This document shows positions 2,981-30,020 of a stretch of 32,449 nt of DNA, piece after piece. Within the stretch, counting starts at the first letter, position 1. Each line of letters starts with the position of its first letter. The notes under the pieces are model-generated. The model saw only the letters and a list, made by a program, of their open reading frames with translations. It was not told where the DNA came from and searched no databases. The DNA comes from Bacteroidota bacterium. Lineage in GTDB: Bacteria; Bacteroidota; Bacteroidia; Bacteroidales; SZUA-534. Location: assembly GCA_003250355.1 (NCBI GenBank), contig QKGS01000016.1:1-32449 (forward strand), written 5' to 3'. A program made the translations under genes and the position numbers.

Positions 2981-4069
2981 ATGAAGAAACTACTATTTGT
3001 AATAAGTTTTATTTGCATTTTAAATTCATTATTGTCTCAGGAAACAATTGTTTATTTCTCAGTTAAGGGGAGTAAAACAATAAAGAGTTATAAAATAGAT
3101 ACAGTTGCCAACAAGCTTGTATATTGTAGTGAAACAACTACAGTAGGCGAGCCTTTTGCCATTGCAATTAATAGTACAGGCAGCTATTTGGTAGCTTCTA
3201 TGTTGGGAACAGGTAACGCATCGTCGTATAGTATAAATAGCCTTACCGGAGCATTAACACCCATAAATACAATTGACCTTGTTGGCGATGCTTGTTATTT
3301 ATCGTTATCAGCGAGCGAAGCTTATATATTAACAGCCTATTTTTCTCCGGGCAAGATTGCAGCATATTCAATTGGAACAGACGGAACATTAGGTTCTTTG
3401 GCATCGTCGGTTTCGTATGGCACATACGATTATCCTCACTCAATAGCAAATATTCCCAAAACTAATATTACAATAGTGCCACAGCTTGGTACAAGTAAAA
3501 TTTTACAATATACACTCAATGAATCGAGCGGAGTTATTTCAGCATTAACCCCGGCAAGTATTTCAACGACAAACGGTTCCGGCCCGCGTCATGTGGTTTA
3601 TCATCCTACGCTTAATATTGCATATTTTTCGTTGGAGATGGCCTCTAAAACAGCAGTATGTGATTATAGCCGACAAGGACTCTCTACCCCAAAGCAAATT
3701 ATTGACAATTTACCCAAAACTTACACTTACGGTAAATGGTCGTCGGACATACATATTACCCCTAACGGCGAATATTTATACACTGCCAACCGTGTTAAAG
3801 ATTCTGATGTAGGTAAAGTAAATGGAAGTATTACCGCATTTTCAATTAATAAAACAACAGGCGAGTTATTTCTAATTGATACTTTTACAACCGAAAACAG
3901 AGTTCGTGAATTTGATATAACTCCCGATGGCAAATACCTTATTGCAGCCGGAGAAATATCAGGTATTGCAGTATTATATAAAATAGGAGCTAATGGTAAT
4001 TTAATTAAGGTTACAACTGAAAATGTAGGTATCGAGCTTTGGTGGGTGAAAAGTGTTATGGTACGCTAA
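2981..4069 (+). CDS. Exported seven-bladed beta-propeller lactonase family protein
   Basis: The 362-residue product starts with a clear Sec signal peptide (about residues 1-20, MKKLLFVISFICILNSLLSQ). A seven-bladed propeller of the lactonase family follows (PF10282, YbhE-type 6-phosphogluconolactonase and carboxymuconate-cyclase relatives). Repeated blade signatures are visible: 'GEPFAIAINSTGSYLVAS', 'GPRHVVYHPTLNIAYF', 'DIHITPNGEYLYTANR' and 'REFDITPDGKYLIAAG'. Cytosolic family members hydrolyse 6-phosphogluconolactone. The signal peptide here points to the periplasm or cell surface, so a different lactone substrate or a non-enzymatic role is possible. A propeller call is safe; the reaction is not. 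The stop lies 11 bases before the next gene, so the two are probably co-transcribed. Confidence 0.8.
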   Translation: MKKLLFVISFICILNSLLSQETIVYFSVKGSKTIKSYKIDTVANKLVYCSETTTVGEPFAIAINSTGSYLVASMLGTGNASSYSINSLTGALTPINTIDLVGDACYLSLSASEAYILTAYFSPGKIAAYSIGTDGTLGSLASSVSYGTYDYPHSIANIPKTNITIVPQLGTSKILQYTLNESSGVISALTPASISTTNGSGPRHVVYHPTLNIAYFSLEMASKTAVCDYSRQGLSTPKQIIDNLPKTYTYGKWSSDIHITPNGEYLYTANRVKDSDVGKVNGSITAFSINKTTGELFLIDTFTTENRVREFDITPDGKYLIAAGEISGIAVLYKIGANGNLIKVTTENVGIELWWVKSVMVR

Positions 4070-4080
4070 TTTATAAGTAT

Positions 4081-4521
4081 ATGAACATATTTATATACGG
4101 TTCGCTGTTGTTTGAAAGTATTAGAGAACCACTAATAGGCCGAAAAGTTGAAGTAGAAGAAGCAATACTTCACAATTATGAGATATATAAAATAAACTAT
4201 GGCTTAGCCCAGTCCGATTACCCTATTTTAAAAAGTGAGGCAGGAAAAAAAGTATACGGATTACTAATGAAAAATTTGAATAAAGTAGAAATTGACATAT
4301 TAAGTTTCTATGAAGGCGATGAATATATACTCAATGAAGTTGTTGTTAAAACAAAAAATATTAAACAAAATGCCTTTGCTTACTTTCCTGTTAAAGCATT
4401 GGTTTATAAATATGGAGACCTGTGGAGTATTGGAGAATTTGAAAGAAATATTTTAAAAAAATATAGTGAACAAATAATACCACAAACCATTGCAGAGTAT
4501 AACAAAATGTGTGATAAATAG
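4081..4521 (+). CDS. Gamma-glutamylcyclotransferase-like (AIG2-like) protein
   Basis: This is a small 146-residue cytosolic protein of the gamma-glutamylcyclotransferase/AIG2-like fold (PF06094). The glycine-containing substrate loop YGSLL is at residues 6-10, and the acidic FYEGDEY segment (residues 76-82) carries Glu78 where the family has its catalytic Glu. Relatives convert gamma-glutamyl amines or peptides to 5-oxoproline and the free amine; the substrate is not deducible. The start at 4081 is preferred because the fold begins directly with MNIFIYGSLL. An in-frame ATG at 4039 lies inside the end of the preceding gene. Only 11 bases separate it from the lactonase-like gene. Confidence 0.75.
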   Translation: MNIFIYGSLLFESIREPLIGRKVEVEEAILHNYEIYKINYGLAQSDYPILKSEAGKKVYGLLMKNLNKVEIDILSFYEGDEYILNEVVVKTKNIKQNAFAYFPVKALVYKYGDLWSIGEFERNILKKYSEQIIPQTIAEYNKMCDK

Positions 4522-4557: not shown

Positions 4558-4588
4558 TTTGAATTTAAAAATTCATTAATTTACTTTG
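4558..4588 (+). promoter_or_regulatory. Promoter of the trp operon
   Basis: TTTG at 4558-4561 and TTACTTTG at 4581-4588 are 19 bases apart, the spacing of Bacteroidota -33/-7 promoters. The -7 box differs from TAnnTTTG at one position. Transcription would begin near 4594, about 14 bases before the leader peptide start. Confidence 0.6.
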
Positions 4589-4607
4589 TGTCAACAAAAA
4601 TATAACA

Positions 4608-4658
4608 ATGAACATTAGTGTAAAAAATATTTGGTGGTGGCATATCAATTCGCAATAA
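4608..4658 (+). CDS. trpL: trp operon leader peptide with three tandem Trp codons
   Basis: A 16-codon frame encodes MNISVKNIWWWHINSQ and ends in TAA. Three consecutive TGG codons (4632-4640) in a 16-residue peptide are far from chance, given how rare Trp is. It lies between a Bacteroidota-type promoter (4558-4588) and an intrinsic terminator (4698-4731), directly before trpE. This is the layout of a transcription attenuator. When charged tRNA-Trp is scarce the ribosome should stall on the TGG run and change the folding of the RNA so that the terminator does not form. The peptide probably has no function apart from being translated. No Shine-Dalgarno sequence is evident; the region before ATG is A-rich. 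Confidence 0.85.
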   Translation: MNISVKNIWWWHINSQ

Positions 4659-4697
4659 TCTCGTGAATCGATAGCTGGTGCTTATATAATAATATTA

Positions 4698-4731
4698 AAG
4701 CCTGTCGCATTTCACGACAGGCTTTTTTTTT
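4698..4731 (+). terminator. Attenuator terminator of the trp operon
   Basis: Arms AAGCCTGTCG (4698-4707) and CGACAGGCTT (4715-4724) pair perfectly over 10 bp with a 7-base loop, followed by nine T residues (4723-4731). It lies 39 bases after the leader stop and 27 bases before the trpE start. An upstream segment GGTGCTT (4677-4683) can pair partly with the 5' arm (AAGCC) as a competing antiterminator, but this pairing is weaker and includes a bulge. Confidence 0.9.
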
Positions 4732-4757
4732 AGTAAAAACAAAAACACATACATACA

Positions 4758-6161
4758 GTGAAAACAATAAACTTTACAGTAAACACAAAAGAGATACTAG
4801 CCGACGTACTCACACCGGTAGCTATCTATCTGAAACTGCGCGATGTTTTTCCAAATTCTGTTTTATTGGAAGGTGCCGACTTTAAAGCAGGCGAAAACCA
4901 GTATTCATTTATAGCCCTTGAACCTATTGCCGGTATAAAAGCAATGGGGCAAAAAGTAGAGCTAAACTATCCCGATGGTAAGGAAGAAACAATAAAACTC
5001 GCAAAACCGCAGGATGCAATTGATATTTTGAGCAATTTTTCAAAAGCATTTGTTCCCCAAAACGACATGAGTAAAGTGCCAACCTCAGGATTATTCGGAT
5101 ATTCAACATTTGAAGCCGTATCATATTTTGAAGAAATAGAACTAAAACGTTCCCAAGCCGATGTTGAAATACCCGATATGCTTTACCAGTTCTACAAATA
5201 CATAGTTGCAATAAACCACAATAGCAATAAAATAACGATAGTTGAGCATATATTCAACAGTGAAGATTCTAACATAAGCTTTATTGAAGAGCAACTCAAT
5301 AACCGTACATTTGCCACCTACCGTTTCAACACATCGGGCGAAGAAACATCGAACGTAACCGATGAAGAATATATGTACATGGTTAGTAAAGGTAAGGAAC
5401 ATTGCTTACGCGGCGATGTATTTCAAATAGTACTTTCACGCGGATTTCAGCAATCATTTACCGGCGACGAGTTTAATGTATACCGTGCATTACGTTCAAT
5501 AAACCCATCACCCTATTTGTTTTACTTCGATTTTGGCAGCTATAAATTGTTCGGCTCATCGCCCGAGGCACAGATAAAATCGGAAAACGGCAAAGCATAT
5601 ATTAATCCAATAGCAGGAACATTTAAACGTACCGGCAACGACATAGAAGATAAAGAACTAGCCGAAAAACTTTCGAAAGACCCCAAAGAGAATAGTGAAC
5701 ACATTATGCTTGTTGACCTTGCCAGAAATGACCTTAGTAGAAATGCCGATAATGTAAAACTGAATTTTTTTCGCGAAATACATTATTACTCACACGTTTT
5801 GCATATGGTATCGGAAGTTCAAGGCGATATTCGTAAAGATGCTGACCCGGTTCGTATTTTTGCCGACACATTCCCTGCCGGAACACTTAGCGGTGCACCT
5901 AAATACAAGGCAATGGAACTTATTGATAAGTACGAGAACCGTGCGCGCGGTTATTATGGAGGTTGTATTGGTATTATTGGCCTTAACGGCAAAATAAATC
6001 AGGCCATAACCATCCGCTCTTTTATGAGTAAAAACAATACCCTTTATTATCAGGCCGGTGCAGGTGTTGTTGCCGATTCAAAAGAAGAAAGCGAACTGGC
6101 AGAGGTTAACAACAAACTGGCTGCACTTAAAGTAGCAATAAACGAAGCAAAGAAAATATAA
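4758..6161 (+). CDS. trpE: Anthranilate synthase component I
   Basis: TrpE makes anthranilate from chorismate, using ammonia supplied by TrpG. It is the committed step of tryptophan synthesis in the cytosol. The 467-residue length is normal. The N-terminal regulatory domain carries LLEGAD (residues 36-41), corresponding to the LLES element that binds tryptophan for feedback inhibition. It also has NPSPYLF (249-255) of the same site. The chorismate-binding domain shows PIAGT, the TFPAGTLSGAPK segment (371-382) and YYQAGAGVVADS near the end. The start codon is GTG at 4758; no ATG lies close to the conserved N-terminus. Expression should be controlled by the leader/terminator at 4608-4731 as well as by feedback. 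Confidence 0.97.
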   Translation: MKTINFTVNTKEILADVLTPVAIYLKLRDVFPNSVLLEGADFKAGENQYSFIALEPIAGIKAMGQKVELNYPDGKEETIKLAKPQDAIDILSNFSKAFVPQNDMSKVPTSGLFGYSTFEAVSYFEEIELKRSQADVEIPDMLYQFYKYIVAINHNSNKITIVEHIFNSEDSNISFIEEQLNNRTFATYRFNTSGEETSNVTDEEYMYMVSKGKEHCLRGDVFQIVLSRGFQQSFTGDEFNVYRALRSINPSPYLFYFDFGSYKLFGSSPEAQIKSENGKAYINPIAGTFKRTGNDIEDKELAEKLSKDPKENSEHIMLVDLARNDLSRNADNVKLNFFREIHYYSHVLHMVSEVQGDIRKDADPVRIFADTFPAGTLSGAPKYKAMELIDKYENRARGYYGGCIGIIGLNGKINQAITIRSFMSKNNTLYYQAGAGVVADSKEESELAEVNNKLAALKVAINEAKKI

Positions 6162-10579: not shown

Positions 10580-10798
10580 ATGAATAAGGCAATACAAGAA
10601 ATTTTAAAGCTTAGTGTTTCCGAGAGAATACTCTTGGTTGAAGAAATATGGAATAGTATTGCATCAGAAGATATCTCTCCGGAGTTATCTGAAGAAACAA
10701 AGAAACTTCTTGATGAAAGACTGTTGGAACATAATGAAAATAGGGGATCAGGTAGTAGTTGGGACGATGTAAAAGCGCGAATAAGGGAAGAGTTCTAG
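10580..10798 (+). CDS. Antitoxin of an addiction module (Unstab_antitox type)
   Basis: The 72-residue acidic protein starts MNKAIQEILKLSVSERILLVEEIWNSI and ends SWDDVKARIREEF. This matches the small 'putative addiction module component' family (PF09720 type), whose C-terminal SW..V..R... segment contacts the toxin. It should bind and neutralise the protein encoded directly downstream, with one base between stop and start. It begins seven bases after the trpB stop and so probably rides on the trp transcript. Base composition is like its neighbours apart from being slightly more A-rich. I saw no separate promoter, but one inside the end of trpB cannot be excluded. Confidence 0.85.
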   Translation: MNKAIQEILKLSVSERILLVEEIWNSIASEDISPELSEETKKLLDERLLEHNENRGSGSSWDDVKARIREEF

Positions 10799-10799
10799 T

Positions 10800-11099
10800 A
10801 TGTTTCCAATTATTATCAGACCTTTAGCTGAAAATGATATTAAAGAAGCTTCTATATGGTACAATAAAACACGGGGTGGTTTGGGAGATGAATTTTTATT
10901 AGCTGTTGAAGCAAAATTATATCAAATCAGAAGGAATCCGAAAGGTTATCAGTCAATTTATAAAGCTGTAAGAAGAGTTTTAACAGATAGATTTCCTTAT
11001 GGAATATTTTACATAGTTGAACAAGATAAAATCTATAATTTAGCAGTAGTACATACAAGTAGAAATCCAAAACATTGGATCACCAGGTATGAAGCTTAA
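10800..11099 (+). CDS. Toxin of the ParE/RelE superfamily
   Basis: The 99-residue basic protein has the ParE/RelE fold pattern (PF05016). It opens with 'I.P.AE.DI.EA..WY', continues with a helical hairpin 'GLGDEFLLAVE..L.QI..NP' and 'V.R.L...FPYGIFYIVE', and ends with the strand 'I..LAVVHTSRNPKHW'. The HxxRxP-like ending is typical of ParE toxins paired with this antitoxin type. ParE members poison gyrase and RelE members cleave mRNA; the sequence does not decide between them. It forms a two-gene unit with the antitoxin upstream, and trpA follows after 21 bases. It looks intact. Confidence 0.87.
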   Translation: MFPIIIRPLAENDIKEASIWYNKTRGGLGDEFLLAVEAKLYQIRRNPKGYQSIYKAVRRVLTDRFPYGIFYIVEQDKIYNLAVVHTSRNPKHWITRYEA

Positions 11100-22073: not shown

Positions 22074-22142
22074 GTCGGGTGCTTATAAAAAGTACTAAGC
22101 TTAAAGCTTGGTGTTTTGTAAATATCAAGCTTTAACAATAAC

Positions 22143-22154
22143 TAACTATTTATT
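22143..22154 (+). promoter_or_regulatory. TAACTATTTATT motif, copy 1
   Basis: This 12-base motif lies 16 bases before the start of the first GH86 gene. Identical copies stand at 25966-25977 and 30221-30232, before the other two agarase genes. It may aid translation initiation or bind a shared regulator. Confidence 0.45.
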
Positions 22155-22170
22155 AATAAAAAACATTACT

Positions 22171-25100
22171 ATGAGTTATCGTAAGTTATTTTTTACGAAA
22201 GTATTTGTGTGGGCAGGTATATCAATGCTTACAGCACAGGTAAATGTTGGTGTTAAGTTAGACACCAAGCATTCAGTTGGAGGTGTATCCGACTTTGGTC
22301 GTGAACGCCACATTACCGTTCATTCATCATTAAGCGAGTCAGATTGGGTAGGGGAAGAAGATAAGTTAGATTATCTATTACGTGACCTTGACGCATATTT
22401 TGGTCGTGATAATGGTACTGCATCATGGATATTCAATGTAACCAAAATGGATGAAAACAAAGCAGATTATCCAGACTTGTCAGCAATGGAAAGCTATGGC
22501 GAGTTTATTAAGGGTAATTATCAGGGTAATATTGAGAGCAGAGGTTATGAAAAGTATCAGGATAAGGCATTGGGTATGATATGTGGAGCAAATCCACATC
22601 CAACTTTTGTTACTTATAATTACGGACATATGCCAAAAGGTGATGATGGAGTAGAATGGATGCCGCGCGAAATAGAATCATCACGCGACTGGATGGTTCA
22701 ATACATAGATAAATACTTTGTAGATGATACAGCACAAGAAGGTGAGTTGCGTCCAAAGTTTTGGGAAGTAGTAAATGAGCCTGATATGATGTTAAATGCA
22801 ACTTTATATTTTGGTGGAACAACATGGACTATTTCATCGTGGGAAACATTATTTCAATACCATAAAATTGTAGCAAAAGGCGTTAAAGAGCGTCTTGGTT
22901 ATAAAGCTCCTATGGTTGGCGGTATGACATGGGGTTTACACGATTTTCAAAATCCTGATCAAGACAGAATGACAGTAGAGGCAATGTTAGGTAAATATGG
23001 CACTACAGCTGCTGACGAGGCTGCAAAAACTAAAATAAGAAATGAGATAGCCCGTTGGGGAAATGCTTACGACGGAGTAAAAGGAACCGACTGGCATCAG
23101 TGGGATGTTCTTTGGAAAGGATTTATGGATGTAGCCGGTCCGGAAATGGATTTTTATGCAGTACATATGTATGACTGGCCTAAATATGATGCTACAGGAG
23201 GTGCAATTCGTTCGGGTATGCACGTTGAGGGAATGCTTGAAATGATTGAGTGGTACGATGTTGTAGGTCAGGGTAATGGAATGGCAAATCGTAAACCGAT
23301 AGTAATATCGGAATACGGTGCAGTTCAGGGTGCTTGGGCTTATAAGTCAACTTTTGACCCACGTTACGATTGGGAAAATTTGAAACCGTTCAACTCTATG
23401 ATGATGCAGTACTTACGTCGGTCCTGATTATATTATAAAAACAATGCCTTTTACACCTGCCAAAGCAACTTGGGGCGATGGAGCAACTTGGGCATATAAA
23501 TATAAAATGTTACGTGACGATGATAAGGATGGAATATGGGAATGGAGTGATTATATTAAATGGTATGAACTATGGTCTGAAGTAAAAGGAACAAGAGTTG
23601 AAACTTCATCGGCCGATCTTGATATTCAAGTTGATTGTTATGTTAATGGAGCCGATGTTTATTTGATACTAAACAGTATGGAAACATCAGCAACAACAAT
23701 AAACTTGAGTGTTACTGGTATTGCAGGTTCTCCTACAAGTGTAAAAACAAAACATATGTATTGGAATGGAACTGCTGTTAAGCTCGATGAATCTACTGCT
23801 GCAACAGCTCCAACGTCGGTATCATTAGCCGCTGACGGTACTATGATTTTGAAGTATACTTATGGTTCAGATGTAGAAGCAGCTATTAGTAAAGTAACTA
23901 GAGAATACAAATATTTTTGTGCTTCTTTAGGTGCTAAAAACAGAAAAACATTTTCAGGAACAACTGCAGCTTCGGTTAATGTAAATGGTGTTAAAGTACC
24001 TGCAAATTTATCAAATGCAAAGGCTACATTATTGCTTACCGGTAGTGTATTTTCAGGATGGGCAAAACTAAATTCAGTGAGTATAAATGGTAATGCTGTA
24101 ACACCTTCAAATGATTGGAGAGGTCAGCCTAGAGGAGCCGGTAAAGAATTGGTTACAATGGAAATTCCTTTTAGTGCTAATTATCTTCAAGAGAATAATA
24201 CTATTACAGTTGCTTTTGCAAATGGTGCAGACTTGGCTGTTGCAAATATTATTGTATATGAAACTACCGATGCTTCAGTAGCTATTGCTGTTGATAGCGT
24301 AGCAGTTTCCGATGATGCATTAACTGTAAATATGGGCGACAAAGATCAGATTTCGGGTATTGTATTTCCGGTATATGCAAGTAACAAGTCATTAACATTT
24401 GAAAGCTTAACTCCGGCAGTTGCAACTGTCGATGCAAATGGTATTATTACTCCGGTAAGTGAGGTGAGGCTATTATTAAAGTTATTTCAAATGCCGATAA
24501 TACAAAATTTGCTCAGTGTACAGTTACTGTTACTAATATTCAAGTACCTCCTACATCTATTTCATTAGATTTTGCAGAAGTTTCATTACTTACAGGAAAA
24601 AACAAAACACTTAAAGAAAAAGTACTACCTATCGATGCTGACGATAAAACAGTTTCATGGTTAACCAGTGCTCCTTCTGTAGCAACAGTAGTAGGTGGTG
24701 TAGTTACAGGAGTTAGTGCAGGTACTGCTATTATAACAGCAAAAACAAATACAGGAGCTCTTACTGCTCAGTGTACTGTTAAGGTTGTGGCATTAGACCC
24801 ATTGGCTGAAAGTATTACAGTTCAGGCTGAAAATTTTAAAGAGACCGGAGGCACAACCTTTACCTATGCTGACAATGCGTCGGGAGTTAGAATTAATGGT
24901 ACTTATGTTGATTATTGGAACGCTGATGATTATATTCTTATAGATTTTAATGTAACTACAGCAGGCAATTATTTTGCAACTGCATTTGCAGGAACAACTC
25001 TTGATAATAGGGAAATAAAAATTACTATAGGAACAGAGTCGGTAACGGTTGTTCTTCCCAATAATAATGATTGGACTACTACTGTAGAAACTGTTATTCC

Positions 25101-25994: not shown

Positions 25995-28900
25995 ATGAAT
26001 TATCGTAAGTTACTAGTTACGAAATTATTTGTGTTGGCAGCTTTTTTTATGGTCGAAGCACAAGTAATAGTTGATGTTAACCTGAATATGAAACATTCGG
26101 TTGACGGAGAATCAAGATTTGGCCGTGAGCGCCGTATGACTATTCATGCTAACCACACAGAAAGCGACTGGAATGGGCATGAAGATATGTTAGATTACCT
26201 TATCAATGATTTAGATGTTTATTTTGGTCGTGAAACAGGTAATGCAACATGGAAAATGCAGGGAGTAGAGCAAGATCCGAACAAGCCGGGTTGGGCTAAT
26301 GAATCGCAAATGATTACTCACGGACAGGGTTTAAAGGAATGGTATTCGTCTTCAACGTTTGATTCTCGTCGTCAGTATGAGGCTAAATCAAATATGATTA
26401 TGGGTATCAATGACTTCTCGCCGATGTATTCGAATCTTTCGTATTTTCCAACATTCGGGAAAGGTAAAGATGGATGGTTTGTTAAAGATACCGATGCCGC
26501 TGCCGACTGGGTAGGAAAGTATTTTGAACACTATTTTGCACACGAAAAAGGTGCACTTGGCGACCCGCTGCCAAAATACTGGGAGTGTTATAACGAGCCC
26601 GATATGAACTTCTTAAATCCTTCATTTGGTATGATTGTATCGAGTTTAGAAAAAAACTGGGAGTACCATAAACGTGTTGCTCAGGAAATAAGAAGCCGCT
26701 TAGGTGATAAAGCTCCACTTATTGGAGGTATGACATGGGGACAGTTAGACTTATATAAGTCAGATGGTATACCATCAAGGGTATCTGGTAATTATTGGGA
26801 TGCTTATTCAAGTGCCGAAGCTATTGGTTGGTATTCAGTAATGCTTAAAGGAGTAGGCGAAACCGGTGGTGTAGAGAATCCAGGTGTAGGAAACAGTGTT
26901 TGGCCTAGAGCATGGGATAATAAAGGCGATGCTTGGTGGCAATGGGATTATATGTACCAAGGATTTATGGATTACTGTGGTGCCGATATGGATTTCTATG
27001 GCGTGCATATGTACGACTGGCCACAGGCTGATCCAAACAACGATAAAGCAAGTACAAGAGCAGGAGGACATATAGAAGCATTTCTTGATATGTTCGAGTG
27101 GTACGACCACCAATTATATGGAAAGAAAAAGGATATTGTAGTGTCAGAATTTGGTGCTGTTAGCAGAACTTATATCGAATCATTAGCTAATGGCGAACGT
27201 GATTGGCCTTTTATTAAGTCATTTAACCAAATGCAGATGCAGTTTCTTGAGCGTCCGTCACATGTTGTATATAGTATGCCTTTTGCTCCAACAAAAGCAG
27301 TATGGGGTGCTTATGAGTATGGTGGAAAAGTAGTTCGTTACGAGGGAGCAACACTGATGGAACCACGCGGAACATGGACAACTCTTGCAACTGAGCCTTC
27401 AGGAGGATGGGGATGGGGAAAAACCATTCATTTCTTTGAATTATGGAAAGATGTTGAGGGAACTCGTATCGATACTAAATCAGATGATATAGATGTTCAG
27501 GTTGACTCTTATGTTAATGGCAAAAAAGCTTACCTGATTCTTAATAATACTGTTGATCAAAATAAAACAATAAGTATTTATACACACGGAGCAGGTAGCA
27601 ATACTCTAAGTAGTGTTGAGTTCCGTCACTTATTTAAAGGGGATGATAATATTCCGGCATATACAGTTGCAAATATGACTACTGCCCCTGCGCAAGTAAC
27701 ACTTAAACCAAACTCAACTATTGTTTTGGTTTACAATTATGCATCAGATATATCAATTAATCAGGAGTCGGTTGAAACTAAATATATGTGTGATCCTTTA
27801 GCCGGAACTAGTAAAAATGAGCGCGGTACTCAGCTTTGTCACACCCCGGCTAAAACATCAATTACTGCAACAGTAAAAGGGGTAAGTAAACCGGCCACAG
27901 GCGAGGCTATTATTCGTATTGGCGGATTCCATTATAGCCCGCTCGATGGTACAACAGGTATGAAGGTAACTAAGCTTAAAGTAAACTCTACCGATGTTAT
28001 TGTTTCAGCCAATAATTATGTACAACCAACCAGAGGTTATGGTTTAGGTAGTTGGGCAGGAGCATGGTTTGGTGTTTTAGAAATAGAATGTCCGGTATCA
28101 GCACTTGTTGATGGAACAAATACTATTGAATTTGCAAGAGCAGGTAATACTGAGTTTACTACTATTATGATTCAAACATTTGATATGACAGCAACACCGG
28201 GGCGTACAACAGGTGGAGCTGCAATTACAGGAGTATCATTAGGTACTAATCAAAGTGTAATGCAAGGCAAATCGTTAGCTTTAGCAGCTTCATTTACACC
28301 TGCAAATGCTTCAAATAAAGGCTTAACATGGTCTTCTTCAAATACAAGTGTAGCAACTGTTGACGCCGATGGAGTTGTTACTGCTGTTGCAAGCTCAGGA
28401 ACAACTAATATTACTGCTACAAGTACTGCAAATGGTTCAGTTAATTCAACAATAACAATTACAGCTATACCTTATACTACAGGTGTTACAAGCATTTCTA
28501 TAAATGGCGGAGCAGCATCAGTAACCGTTAATCAGTTTGAAAACACAGCACTTACAGTTAGCTTTACCCCTTTAGTTAATATGGCTCCGGTAATTGAGTG
28601 GTCATCTGATAATACAAACAATGTAGAAATTGTTAACGGAAAAGTAATTGGTAAGGTTATTAATTCATCGGCAGTAATTACGGCTAAAGTTGCAGGAACA
28701 AGCATTACAGACCAAATTACAGTTAATGTAACTATTCCTGATGACGAAAGCGTTTATATGTCAGAAATTCCTAACGAATTGAATCCGGCTTCGGCATATA
28801 CATTCAAAATTCCGGCCTTAGTAGCAGGTGCACGTTCTGTAACAGTAGAGCTATATAAAGGAGCTGATTTGTTAGGAACAGCCACCGACAATGTTGATAA

Positions 28901-30020
28901 ATTTGGTGTAGATACTGCAACAGTTATTATTACACTTGCAAGTACTCCTGATTATGGAACCGATTATGTTGTAAAAGCAATACTAAAAGAGGGTGCTAAT
29001 GTTATAGATACCGAAACAAAATCGATTGAGGTAAAAGCTGCAACTCCGGTTTCAGAAGTTACATTAGATAAGAAGAGTATATCGATACTTAAAGATGGCA
29101 CAAAAACACTTACTCCTACTGTGTACCCAATGAATGCCGGCAATAAGGCTGTAACTTGGTCGTCTGATGCCGAAGGTGTTGCAACAGTTAATGCTAACGG
29201 TGTAGTAACAGGTGTAAGTGCAGGTACTGCAAACATTACTGTAACTACAGTTGATGGCGGACACACAAAAATATGTGCTGTTACAGTAGTAGAGATAGCA
29301 GCAGGTGCTGCTCAAATAATTGTTGAAGCAGAAAACTTCTCATCTGAAGGTGGTACTGTTGATGATTCTCAGTGGAAAGGAGAAGGTATTGGTGTTAGAA
29401 TTAACAGCCAAGCAGACAATGGTGCTTCTACTCCAATAATTGATTACTTCAACAATGGGGATTATGTAATAATAAACTTCAATGTTACTACAGCGGGTAC
29501 TTATTTTGCAAAAGCTTATGTAGCTAACCCTGAAGGAACTAAAACTGTACAAATTACTATTGATGGTACCAAATCTGTTTCTGCAAATATTCCGGCTACT
29601 TCATGGACACAATATGTAGAGCTTGTTATTCCGGGTAACTTTAACTTAACAGCAGGTGCACATACTTTAAAAATAGAAGGTCTTACAGATGATCCTTGGC
29701 AGTTTAATGTTGATAAGGTAATCCTTATTGAAGGACAAGGTCTTACTTCAGATCAACCGGGTGATGGCCCTATATTAGAGGCCGGTGAAGAGGTAGTGCA
29801 GGAGGTAATTCTTTATCCGAACCCTGCAACAGAAACAATTAATGTTACAGTTGAACCACAGTCGAAATATATTGTGTTCAGTACAGTTGGTCAATTAATG
29901 TTGGCCGGCGAAACTTCTGACAACAACTCTATTGATGTTAGCTCATTACCAAGCGGTTTATATGTATTGCATATCCAAAACGGCAATACCGTAGTAGCTA
30001 AGCAATTTATAAAAGAGTAA
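25995..30020 (+). CDS. Modular secreted GH86 beta-agarase/porphyranase
   Basis: GH86 enzymes cut beta-1,4 bonds in agarose or porphyran. The 1341-residue protein has a signal peptide (1-23) and a catalytic TIM barrel (about 30-450) with acid/base Glu201 in YNEPDM and nucleophile Glu385 in VVSEFGA. 'KHSVDGESRFGRERRMTIHA' and 'LDVYFGRETG' are typical of the family's first part. Beta-sandwich modules follow (about 490-735), then a Big_2 domain (743-825), two further Ig-like segments (829-914 and 915-1015) and another Big_2 (1019-1100). A CBM6-like sugar-binding domain (1106-1247) and a T9SS sorting tail (1268-1341, YPNPA...KQFIKE) complete it, so it should cross the outer membrane by type IX secretion and be attached or released. 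It is the intact paralogue of the broken gene upstream. Agarase and porphyranase specificity cannot be separated by eye. Confidence 0.88.
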   Translation: MNYRKLLVTKLFVLAAFFMVEAQVIVDVNLNMKHSVDGESRFGRERRMTIHANHTESDWNGHEDMLDYLINDLDVYFGRETGNATWKMQGVEQDPNKPGWANESQMITHGQGLKEWYSSSTFDSRRQYEAKSNMIMGINDFSPMYSNLSYFPTFGKGKDGWFVKDTDAAADWVGKYFEHYFAHEKGALGDPLPKYWECYNEPDMNFLNPSFGMIVSSLEKNWEYHKRVAQEIRSRLGDKAPLIGGMTWGQLDLYKSDGIPSRVSGNYWDAYSSAEAIGWYSVMLKGVGETGGVENPGVGNSVWPRAWDNKGDAWWQWDYMYQGFMDYCGADMDFYGVHMYDWPQADPNNDKASTRAGGHIEAFLDMFEWYDHQLYGKKKDIVVSEFGAVSRTYIESLANGERDWPFIKSFNQMQMQFLERPSHVVYSMPFAPTKAVWGAYEYGGKVVRYEGATLMEPRGTWTTLATEPSGGWGWGKTIHFFELWKDVEGTRIDTKSDDIDVQVDSYVNGKKAYLILNNTVDQNKTISIYTHGAGSNTLSSVEFRHLFKGDDNIPAYTVANMTTAPAQVTLKPNSTIVLVYNYASDISINQESVETKYMCDPLAGTSKNERGTQLCHTPAKTSITATVKGVSKPATGEAIIRIGGFHYSPLDGTTGMKVTKLKVNSTDVIVSANNYVQPTRGYGLGSWAGAWFGVLEIECPVSALVDGTNTIEFARAGNTEFTTIMIQTFDMTATPGRTTGGAAITGVSLGTNQSVMQGKSLALAASFTPANASNKGLTWSSSNTSVATVDADGVVTAVASSGTTNITATSTANGSVNSTITITAIPYTTGVTSISINGGAASVTVNQFENTALTVSFTPLVNMAPVIEWSSDNTNNVEIVNGKVIGKVINSSAVITAKVAGTSITDQITVNVTIPDDESVYMSEIPNELNPASAYTFKIPALVAGARSVTVELYKGADLLGTATDNVDKFGVDTATVIITLASTPDYGTDYVVKAILKEGANVIDTETKSIEVKAATPVSEVTLDKKSISILKDGTKTLTPTVYPMNAGNKAVTWSSDAEGVATVNANGVVTGVSAGTANITVTTVDGGHTKICAVTVVEIAAGAAQIIVEAENFSSEGGTVDDSQWKGEGIGVRINSQADNGASTPIIDYFNNGDYVIINFNVTTAGTYFAKAYVANPEGTKTVQITIDGTKSVSANIPATSWTQYVELVIPGNFNLTAGAHTLKIEGLTDDPWQFNVDKVILIEGQGLTSDQPGDGPILEAGEEVVQEVILYPNPATETINVTVEPQSKYIVFSTVGQLMLAGETSDNNSIDVSSLPSGLYVLHIQNGNTVVAKQFIKE

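Follow-up and report, generated by a model that had tools for sequence, protein, structure and literature searches.

A short open reading frame (ORF) with a run of Trp codons stands in front of the trp operon of this Bacteroidota bacterium, and the locus raises the question of whether this ORF belongs to a ribosome-mediated switch and, if so, which RNA strand competes with the terminator that follows it. We analysed a DNA stretch of 32,449 nt (the window, to which all positions refer) and compared its leader with those of related genomes. The ORFs 3′ of the leader matched models for trpE, trpG, trpD, trpC, trpF, trpB, and trpA, the matches of trpE and trpF being under the curated cut-offs. A gene on the same strand (4039–4521) ends upstream of the leader. 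The features of the leader region are summarized in Table 1.

Table 1. Features of the trp leader region in the window.
Feature	Position	Strand	Details
Putative promoter	4559–4588	+	TTG 4559–4561; spacer 19 nt; TTACTTTG 4581–4588
Leader peptide ORF, MNISVKNIWWWHINSQ	4608–4658	+	ATG 4608 to TAA 4656–4658; 16 codons; Trp-run ORFs precede trp genes in relatives
Three adjacent Trp codons, TGGTGGTGG	4632–4640	+	Also 5′ strand of the 1:2 hairpin
1:2 hairpin	4633–4682	+	Outer part from Trp codons; inner stem ATTCGC/GTGAAT; sequesters the antiterminator strand
Antiterminator strand	4661–4683	+	Pairs with 4698–4717 in three blocks; 17 bp; −17.7 kcal/mol
Antiterminator block 1	4661–4667 with 4711–4717		TCGTGAA with TTCACGA
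Antiterminator block 2	4669–4674 with 4702–4707		CGATAG with CTGTCG
Antiterminator block 3 (innermost)	4680–4683 with 4698–4701		GCTT with AAGC
Intrinsic terminator hairpin	4698–4724	+	AAGCCTGTCG 4698–4707; loop CATTTCA 4708–4714; CGACAGGCTT 4715–4724
Nine-T tract	4723–4731	+	First two T within the stem
trpE, first gene of trpEGDCFBA	4758–6161	+	Start GTG 4758; NCBIfam TIGR00564, 1.6e-126, 423 bits (curated cut-off of 517.7 not reached)

When both strands of the window were scanned, a Trp run of the TGGTGGTGG type occurred only once (expected 0.09; present in 8 of 100 shuffles). Its place within a short ORF ahead of trpE provides the run of product codons that characterizes a peptide-leader attenuator. 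The putative promoter agrees at seven of eight positions with TAnnTTTG, which we take to be the Bacteroidota −7 box consensus. The exact box was found 8–50 nt 5′ of the leader ATG in 61 of the 135 leaders having sufficient upstream DNA, compared with 5.35 in shuffles. A sequence-only reading of this region had described a Bacteroidota-type promoter, a 16-codon ORF with three adjacent TGG codons, and a 10-bp perfect stem followed by nine T and then trpE. All of these elements were recovered here, with the correction that the T tract begins inside the stem rather than behind it. Its view of the locus as a trp-operon attenuator that is enterobacterial in principle, with Trp codons and a terminator before trpE, was likewise sustained.

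Elsewhere in the window, the gap between trpB and trpA within the trp operon (10580–11096) carries a type II toxin-antitoxin-like pair (PF09720 Unstab_antitox, 4.4e-15; PF05016 ParE_toxin, 2.8e-6). Two adjoining secreted glycosidase-like genes were also observed at 22108–24568 and 25995–30020. The former is split into two ORFs matching successive parts of the latter (40% in 441 aligned positions and 33% in 393), and the latter has porphyranase, CBM, and sorting-tail domains.

Terminator and antiterminator in the window

An intrinsic terminator lies between the leader ORF and trpE, as in other peptide-leader attenuators. Its stem consists of 10 perfect pairs, or 11 with A4697–T4725, and the terminator scan of the window returned two sites, which were this same hairpin on both strands (0.1 in shuffles). 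The fold of 4632–4694 yielded the 1:2 hairpin with a minimum free energy of −15.5 kcal/mol, and the antiterminator strand was 73% paired upstream in the folding ensemble. The whole leader together with the terminator gave a z-score of −3.99, and none of 200 dinucleotide shuffles folded as well. When folded alone, 4634–4706 was unexceptional in stability (−14.6, z = −1.17; 24 of 200 shuffles equally good), and so was 4658–4706 (z = −0.11).

The antiterminator covers the terminator 5′ arm, four of the seven loop bases, and three bases at the tip of the 3′ arm, and it is mutually exclusive with the terminator and covaries in relatives (see below), as a peptide-leader attenuator would have it. Nascent RNA was folded with the 5′ part masked to 4645, 4650, 4655, or 4660, mimicking a stalled ribosome. 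The antiterminator was then the best structure at ends 4716 and 4719, with energies of −13.4 and −15.9, respectively (−15.7 with the mask to 4660). With a mask to 4670 or 4675, which mimics a ribosome that has reached the stop codon, end 4719 gave a best fold containing the terminator top (−7.1). The complete terminator is more stable than the antiterminator (−18.8 versus about −15.9), and the switch would therefore have to be kinetic.

The sequence-only reading had seen no strong 1:2 or 2:3 hairpins. The Trp-codon hairpin and the 17-bp antiterminator speak against this statement, yet the z-score of 4634–4706 alone is modest, and with these two structures the doubt that an ordinary switch exists loses its ground. 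Its sole competing pairing, GGTGCTT with AAGCC, proved to be the innermost edge of the antiterminator (block 3), whereas the main blocks 1 and 2 had been overlooked. Nor is the leader much shorter than that of enterobacteria, as had been stated: the window has 90 nt from ATG to the terminator, against 87 nt for E. coli trpL, which encodes a 14-aa peptide.

Trp-codon leaders across Bacteroidota

Leaders were collected by the presence of a Trp run and a terminator, and the antiterminator played no part in the selection. The presence of the first two elements in the sampled leaders is thus by construction, because both were selection criteria. A TrpE-like match (E ≤ 0.001) was obtained in 54 of 60 relatives, with many paralogues, and a leader was present at 29 of 30 full-length TrpE loci that were retrieved from this sample (27 found by script and two by eye). 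The script-found leader was inside the locus in 24 of the 30; those of L017 and L032 were farther upstream (L049 and L045), and that of L028 was identical to a counted one (L051). Two-Trp leaders, whose hairpins failed the script rule, were seen by eye in L014 and L031 (L050 and L052), and no leader was seen in L029, which is near a contig end.

Eighty named Bacteroidota loci came from Bacteroides, Flavobacterium, Pedobacter, Dyadobacter, Algoriphagus, Hymenobacter, Chitinophagaceae, Saprospiraceae, and others; a leader was present in 70 of them, counting L071 (identical to L009). Those without one were L072, where the contig begins 17 nt upstream, L074, L078, L080, L086, L092, L107, L122, L131, and L139. 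In a phylum-wide sample, 70 of 296 genomes matched TrpE at a strict E-value of 1e-140. Leaders were found at 26 of the 30 loci fetched from it, the window included, and not at L147, L164, L167, and L170. After removal of false calls (L012+3941, L017-1307, L136+1758, L139+3458, and L149-305) and of a duplicate of the window (L146), 136 distinct leaders remained (137 minus one identical duplicate).

In these 136 leaders, the median peptide length was 19 aa, and the terminator followed the first TGG at a median distance of 69 nt. The next gene was trpE in 111, trpB in 21, and trpD in two, with too little DNA in the other two. The TrpB-like genes behind the Trp-codon leaders of L035 (571–1938) and L038 (570–1934) matched NF009057 above its cut-off (7.3e-219 and 1.2e-214, respectively). 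Nine loci had two leaders in series before trpE (L006, L007, L008, L011, L066, L067, L070, L073, and L089), a count that omits L005, with a large second loop, and L055, whose second terminator was outside the check, although both also have two Trp-run ORFs. Relatives with tandem attenuators include Draconibacterium and Mariniphaga records, and the first leader of the pair has the peptide pattern IWLPWWGLL in L066, L070, L073, and L089. The window has a single leader. A tandem arrangement might serve to make the Trp response sharper. A recurring GCYATTGT-like stretch was also noticed by eye, uncounted, 3′ of the antiterminator strand in the leaders of relatives; this stretch has the potential to base-pair with the TGG codons and may in addition act as a site of polymerase pausing.

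Pairing was measured between the terminator and the leader segment that begins 12 nt past the first TGG and ends at the terminator. Two controls of 100 rounds each were used, in which terminators were swapped among leaders or the segments were dinucleotide-shuffled. For all 136 leaders, the mean energy with the leader's own terminator was −16.98 kcal/mol, compared with −13.83 ± 0.25 after swapping and −11.63 ± 0.23 after shuffling. The corresponding values for 82 dissimilar leaders were −17.58, −14.06 ± 0.32, and −12.65 ± 0.31. The strand started 22–31 nt past the first TGG in 78% of cases (44% swapped and 22% shuffled).

For covariation, 81 leaders were aligned with MAFFT from sequence alone, L064 of the 82 being outside the length limit. 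The 8-bp core helix of the antiterminator was paired in 69.1% of 589 cells (61.6% in shuffles and 30 to 54% when slid), leaving 31% of cells unpaired. Its covariation score was 0.285, compared with 0.186 in shuffles (0 of 500 as high) and at most 0.112 when slid. Changes on both sides were seen in 72 cells (33.7 ± 7.1 in shuffles; 0 of 500 as many), and further pair types numbered 29 (22.6 in shuffles; 2 of 500). All eight pairs showed two-sided change, a measure that does not discriminate, as the same was seen in 232 of 500 shuffles. Part of the covariation reflects shared ancestry, which the slid and swapped controls remove only partly. Whole helices were exchanged between leaders, as in GTCGTGAG:CTCACGAC, GCTATGTTAAGCG:CGCTTAACATAGC, GCTTCCTGT:ACAGGAAGC, and CCGTGAG:CTCACGG. 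Judged from these comparisons, the antiterminator pairing in Bacteroidota trp leaders is real and specific to each leader's own terminator.

The sequence-only reading had proposed to look in relatives for conserved TGG runs and for covarying terminator and antiterminator stems. WWW was present in 120 of the 136 leaders, and the terminator stem was paired in 95.6% of cells with a covariation score of 0.655 (0.284 in shuffles), both figures coming from leaders picked by these two elements. Covariation of the antiterminator was seen in the core helix described above.

Probable loop targeting and relation to known leaders

The longest helix between strand and terminator took at least three loop bases in 100 of the 136 Bacteroidota trp leaders, and at least two loop bases plus two 3′-arm bases in 77. 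It was confined to the 5′ arm in 13, and 23 were in between, several of them using the 3′ arm only. Among the 82 dissimilar leaders, at least three loop bases were used in 66%, compared with 30% after swapping and 22% after shuffling. The 5′-arm-only exceptions include Chitinophagaceae L119 and L130, Limnovirga L106, the Flavobacteriia-like duplicates L154 and L155, and the tandem-pair leaders L007 and L073. By this measure, the loop bases in the longest helix numbered 0 in the E. coli trp leader, 1 in thr, 1 in leu (whose helix reaches the 3′ arm), 3 in his, 1 in phe, and 0 in ilv.

Candidate leaders of other operons, from the same bacterial class, were examined in a set of 22. Like the trp leaders, the his, ilv, and phe leaders have a run of regulatory codons and then a terminator that is preceded by a complementary strand. 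They differ from them in loop use: at least three loop bases were taken in 0 of 5 ilv, 0 of 4 phe, and 4 of 13 his leaders, and the helix was confined to the 5′ arm in 4 of 5, 3 of 4, and 2 of 13, respectively. Rows from L226 and L241 were left out of this set by eye, and among the omitted rows, a 40-aa ORF of L241 with a Phe/Tyr stretch is possibly a genuine phe leader. Compared with 100 of 136 for trp, these counts indicate that the trp leader favours the loop most strongly and that this is no rule for all Bacteroidota leaders. A pattern search for a Thr/Ile leader at homoserine dehydrogenase loci gave 0 of 24. Peptide leaders followed by terminators also occur for his, ilv, and phe in the genome of the window itself (L196, L233, and L246).

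The antiterminator in most of the examined Bacteroidota trp leaders thus appears to be built on the terminator loop, unlike that of E. coli trp, which pairs with the terminator 5′ arm only and with no loop base. Trp codons, an antiterminator, and a terminator with a T tract are common to E. coli trpL and the window leader, and the antiterminator design, which differs from that of E. coli trp, is well supported by covariation. It could still be argued that the window leader is of the E. coli type in every detail, its strand working through the 5′ arm alone and its complementarity to the loop being incidental. Blocks 2 and 3 indeed provide 10 bp with the 5′ arm by themselves, and leaders confined to this arm do exist in the trp, ilv, and phe sets, as in E. 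coli trp. However, alignment columns 147–150, which are mostly loop, showed several standard pair types with columns 52–55, and the longest helix included loop bases at a much higher frequency than in either control. We therefore regard incidental loop pairing as improbable.

A helix that lies mostly within the loop, as several do, would also be expected if the strand kissed the loop of an intact terminator and strengthened it, as in a pro-termination pseudoknot. The commonest longest helix nevertheless enters the 3′ arm by 3 nt (39 of 136) and would break the top pairs of the stem. Trp starvation would moreover raise termination in such an arrangement, which is the wrong direction for a biosynthetic operon, and we hold it to be very improbable. 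The least credible explanation is that no switch exists and that a Trp-rich ORF stands by chance before an ordinary terminator of the gene at 4039–4521. This gene is on the same strand and ends upstream of the leader, but a promoter-like box separates the two, and the Trp run, terminator, and antiterminator are conserved before trp genes, so that hardly any weight is left to it. An attenuator whose antiterminator targets the loop remains the preferred reading.

Such leaders are of a known kind. The Bacteroid-trp RNA (RF01692) was described by Weinberg et al. 2010 (PMC2864571), and the kind appears in the published record in PMC2864571 and PMC6414381. The statement cited with PMC2864571 mentions psychrophilum and likens the RNA to the E. 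coli trp leader. The kind that the sequence-only reading placed in a phylum distant from the enterobacteria had thus already been catalogued. By bits, RF01692 was the best Rfam match of the window leader (32.2 bits, E = 0.039, 239 bases), below its gathering cut-off of 49 bits. Thr_leader (RF00506) ranked first by E-value (2.7e-4, 31.1 bits; cut-off 55), and the trpB motif RF04312 scored 27.4 bits (cut-off 59), neither reaching its cut-off. The enterobacterial Trp_leader (RF00513) was absent from the 23 Rfam matches of the window leader up to E = 10, and a tRNA was the sole match in the window at gathering score, with no T-box or other riboswitch.

When the 60 genomes were searched with RF01692, 30 of them yielded a total of 34 matches at E ≤ 1. 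The cut-off was reached in six genomes, and Trp-run leaders were present there in all six. Within the same limit of E ≤ 1, matches away from trp loci (L033, L034, L036, L037, L039–L042, and L057) had no Trp-run leader by eye and were taken as chance. The window leader shares with RF01692 the phylum, the site before trp genes, the Trp-codon ORF, and the hairpin from the Trp codons, and the model runs up to a terminator arm resembling GGCUUGUC, as found in the window. The window leader is therefore a divergent Bacteroid-trp member by place and anatomy, not by Rfam cut-off. The model contains one hairpin and ends at the terminator 5′ arm, and thus lacks the terminator and the loop-directed antiterminator; it stops short of the loop that the switch would use. 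Searches of an open-licence library showed neither a loop-directed antiterminator nor tandem attenuators for Bacteroidota trp leaders, and the supplement of PMC2864571 may say more.

Ribosome position and proposed control

The ribosome footprint extends about 13 nt beyond the A site. With this value, the antiterminator strand stays clear of a ribosome halted at the third Trp codon in 131 of the 136 leaders, a count favoured by the strand search starting 12 nt past the first TGG. Once the ribosome has reached the stop codon, half or more of the strand is covered in 135 of the 136. A stall would thus free the strand and a ribosome at the stop codon would mask it, which fits the geometry of a peptide-leader attenuator.

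Folding models of the 82 dissimilar leaders, which ignore RNA polymerase kinetics, proteins, and tertiary contacts, pointed in the same direction. Without masking, the strand was paired upstream with a probability of 0.62 (0.23 ± 0.02 with shuffled flanks). With a stalled ribosome, the terminator top had a probability of 0.09, compared with 0.44 ± 0.04 for swapped and 0.63 ± 0.03 for shuffled leaders, and it exceeded 0.5 in 8 of the 82. When the ribosome stood at the stop codon, this probability was 0.86, a figure partly due to removal of the masked strand and hence a test of the stop-codon position. For the window, the values were 1e-5 in the stalled state and only 0.58 in the stop-codon state. 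This geometry and the models support the suggestion of the sequence-only reading that stem formation may be decided by the stalled or terminating ribosome itself.

On evidence that is comparative and computed throughout, we conclude, with a probability of about 0.86, that the window leader is a ribosome-mediated transcription attenuator that senses charged tRNA-Trp through a loop-targeting antiterminator. When Trp is plentiful, the ribosome would clear the three Trp codons and halt at the TAA at 4656, masking much of the strand from 4661 onward. The terminator would then form and the RNA would end before trpE. When Trp is scarce, a stall on the Trp codons would open the 1:2 hairpin and free 4661–4683. 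The freed strand would pair with the emerging 5′ arm, loop, and 3′-arm tip, so that the terminator could not close and trpEGDCFBA would be transcribed. Without translation, the 1:2 hairpin would hide the strand, making termination the default.

Beyond the window, we lean towards regarding the Bacteroidota trp leaders as a distinct design. In this design, a strand about 26 nt past the first Trp codon complements the loop and the arm tips and would nucleate on the loop before the 3′ arm emerges. It would thus win kinetically despite the more stable terminator, and some genomes would run two such switches in series. A loop-seeded antiterminator would represent a second way to build a peptide-leader switch. 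The his, ilv, and phe leaders in the genome and its class suggest that ribosome-mediated attenuation is general in the group. Peptide-leader attenuation requires the leading ribosome to keep time with RNA polymerase. That a trp leader selected for such timing is widespread, and is accompanied by his, ilv, and phe leaders, argues that ribosome-polymerase coupling may work in Bacteroidota.
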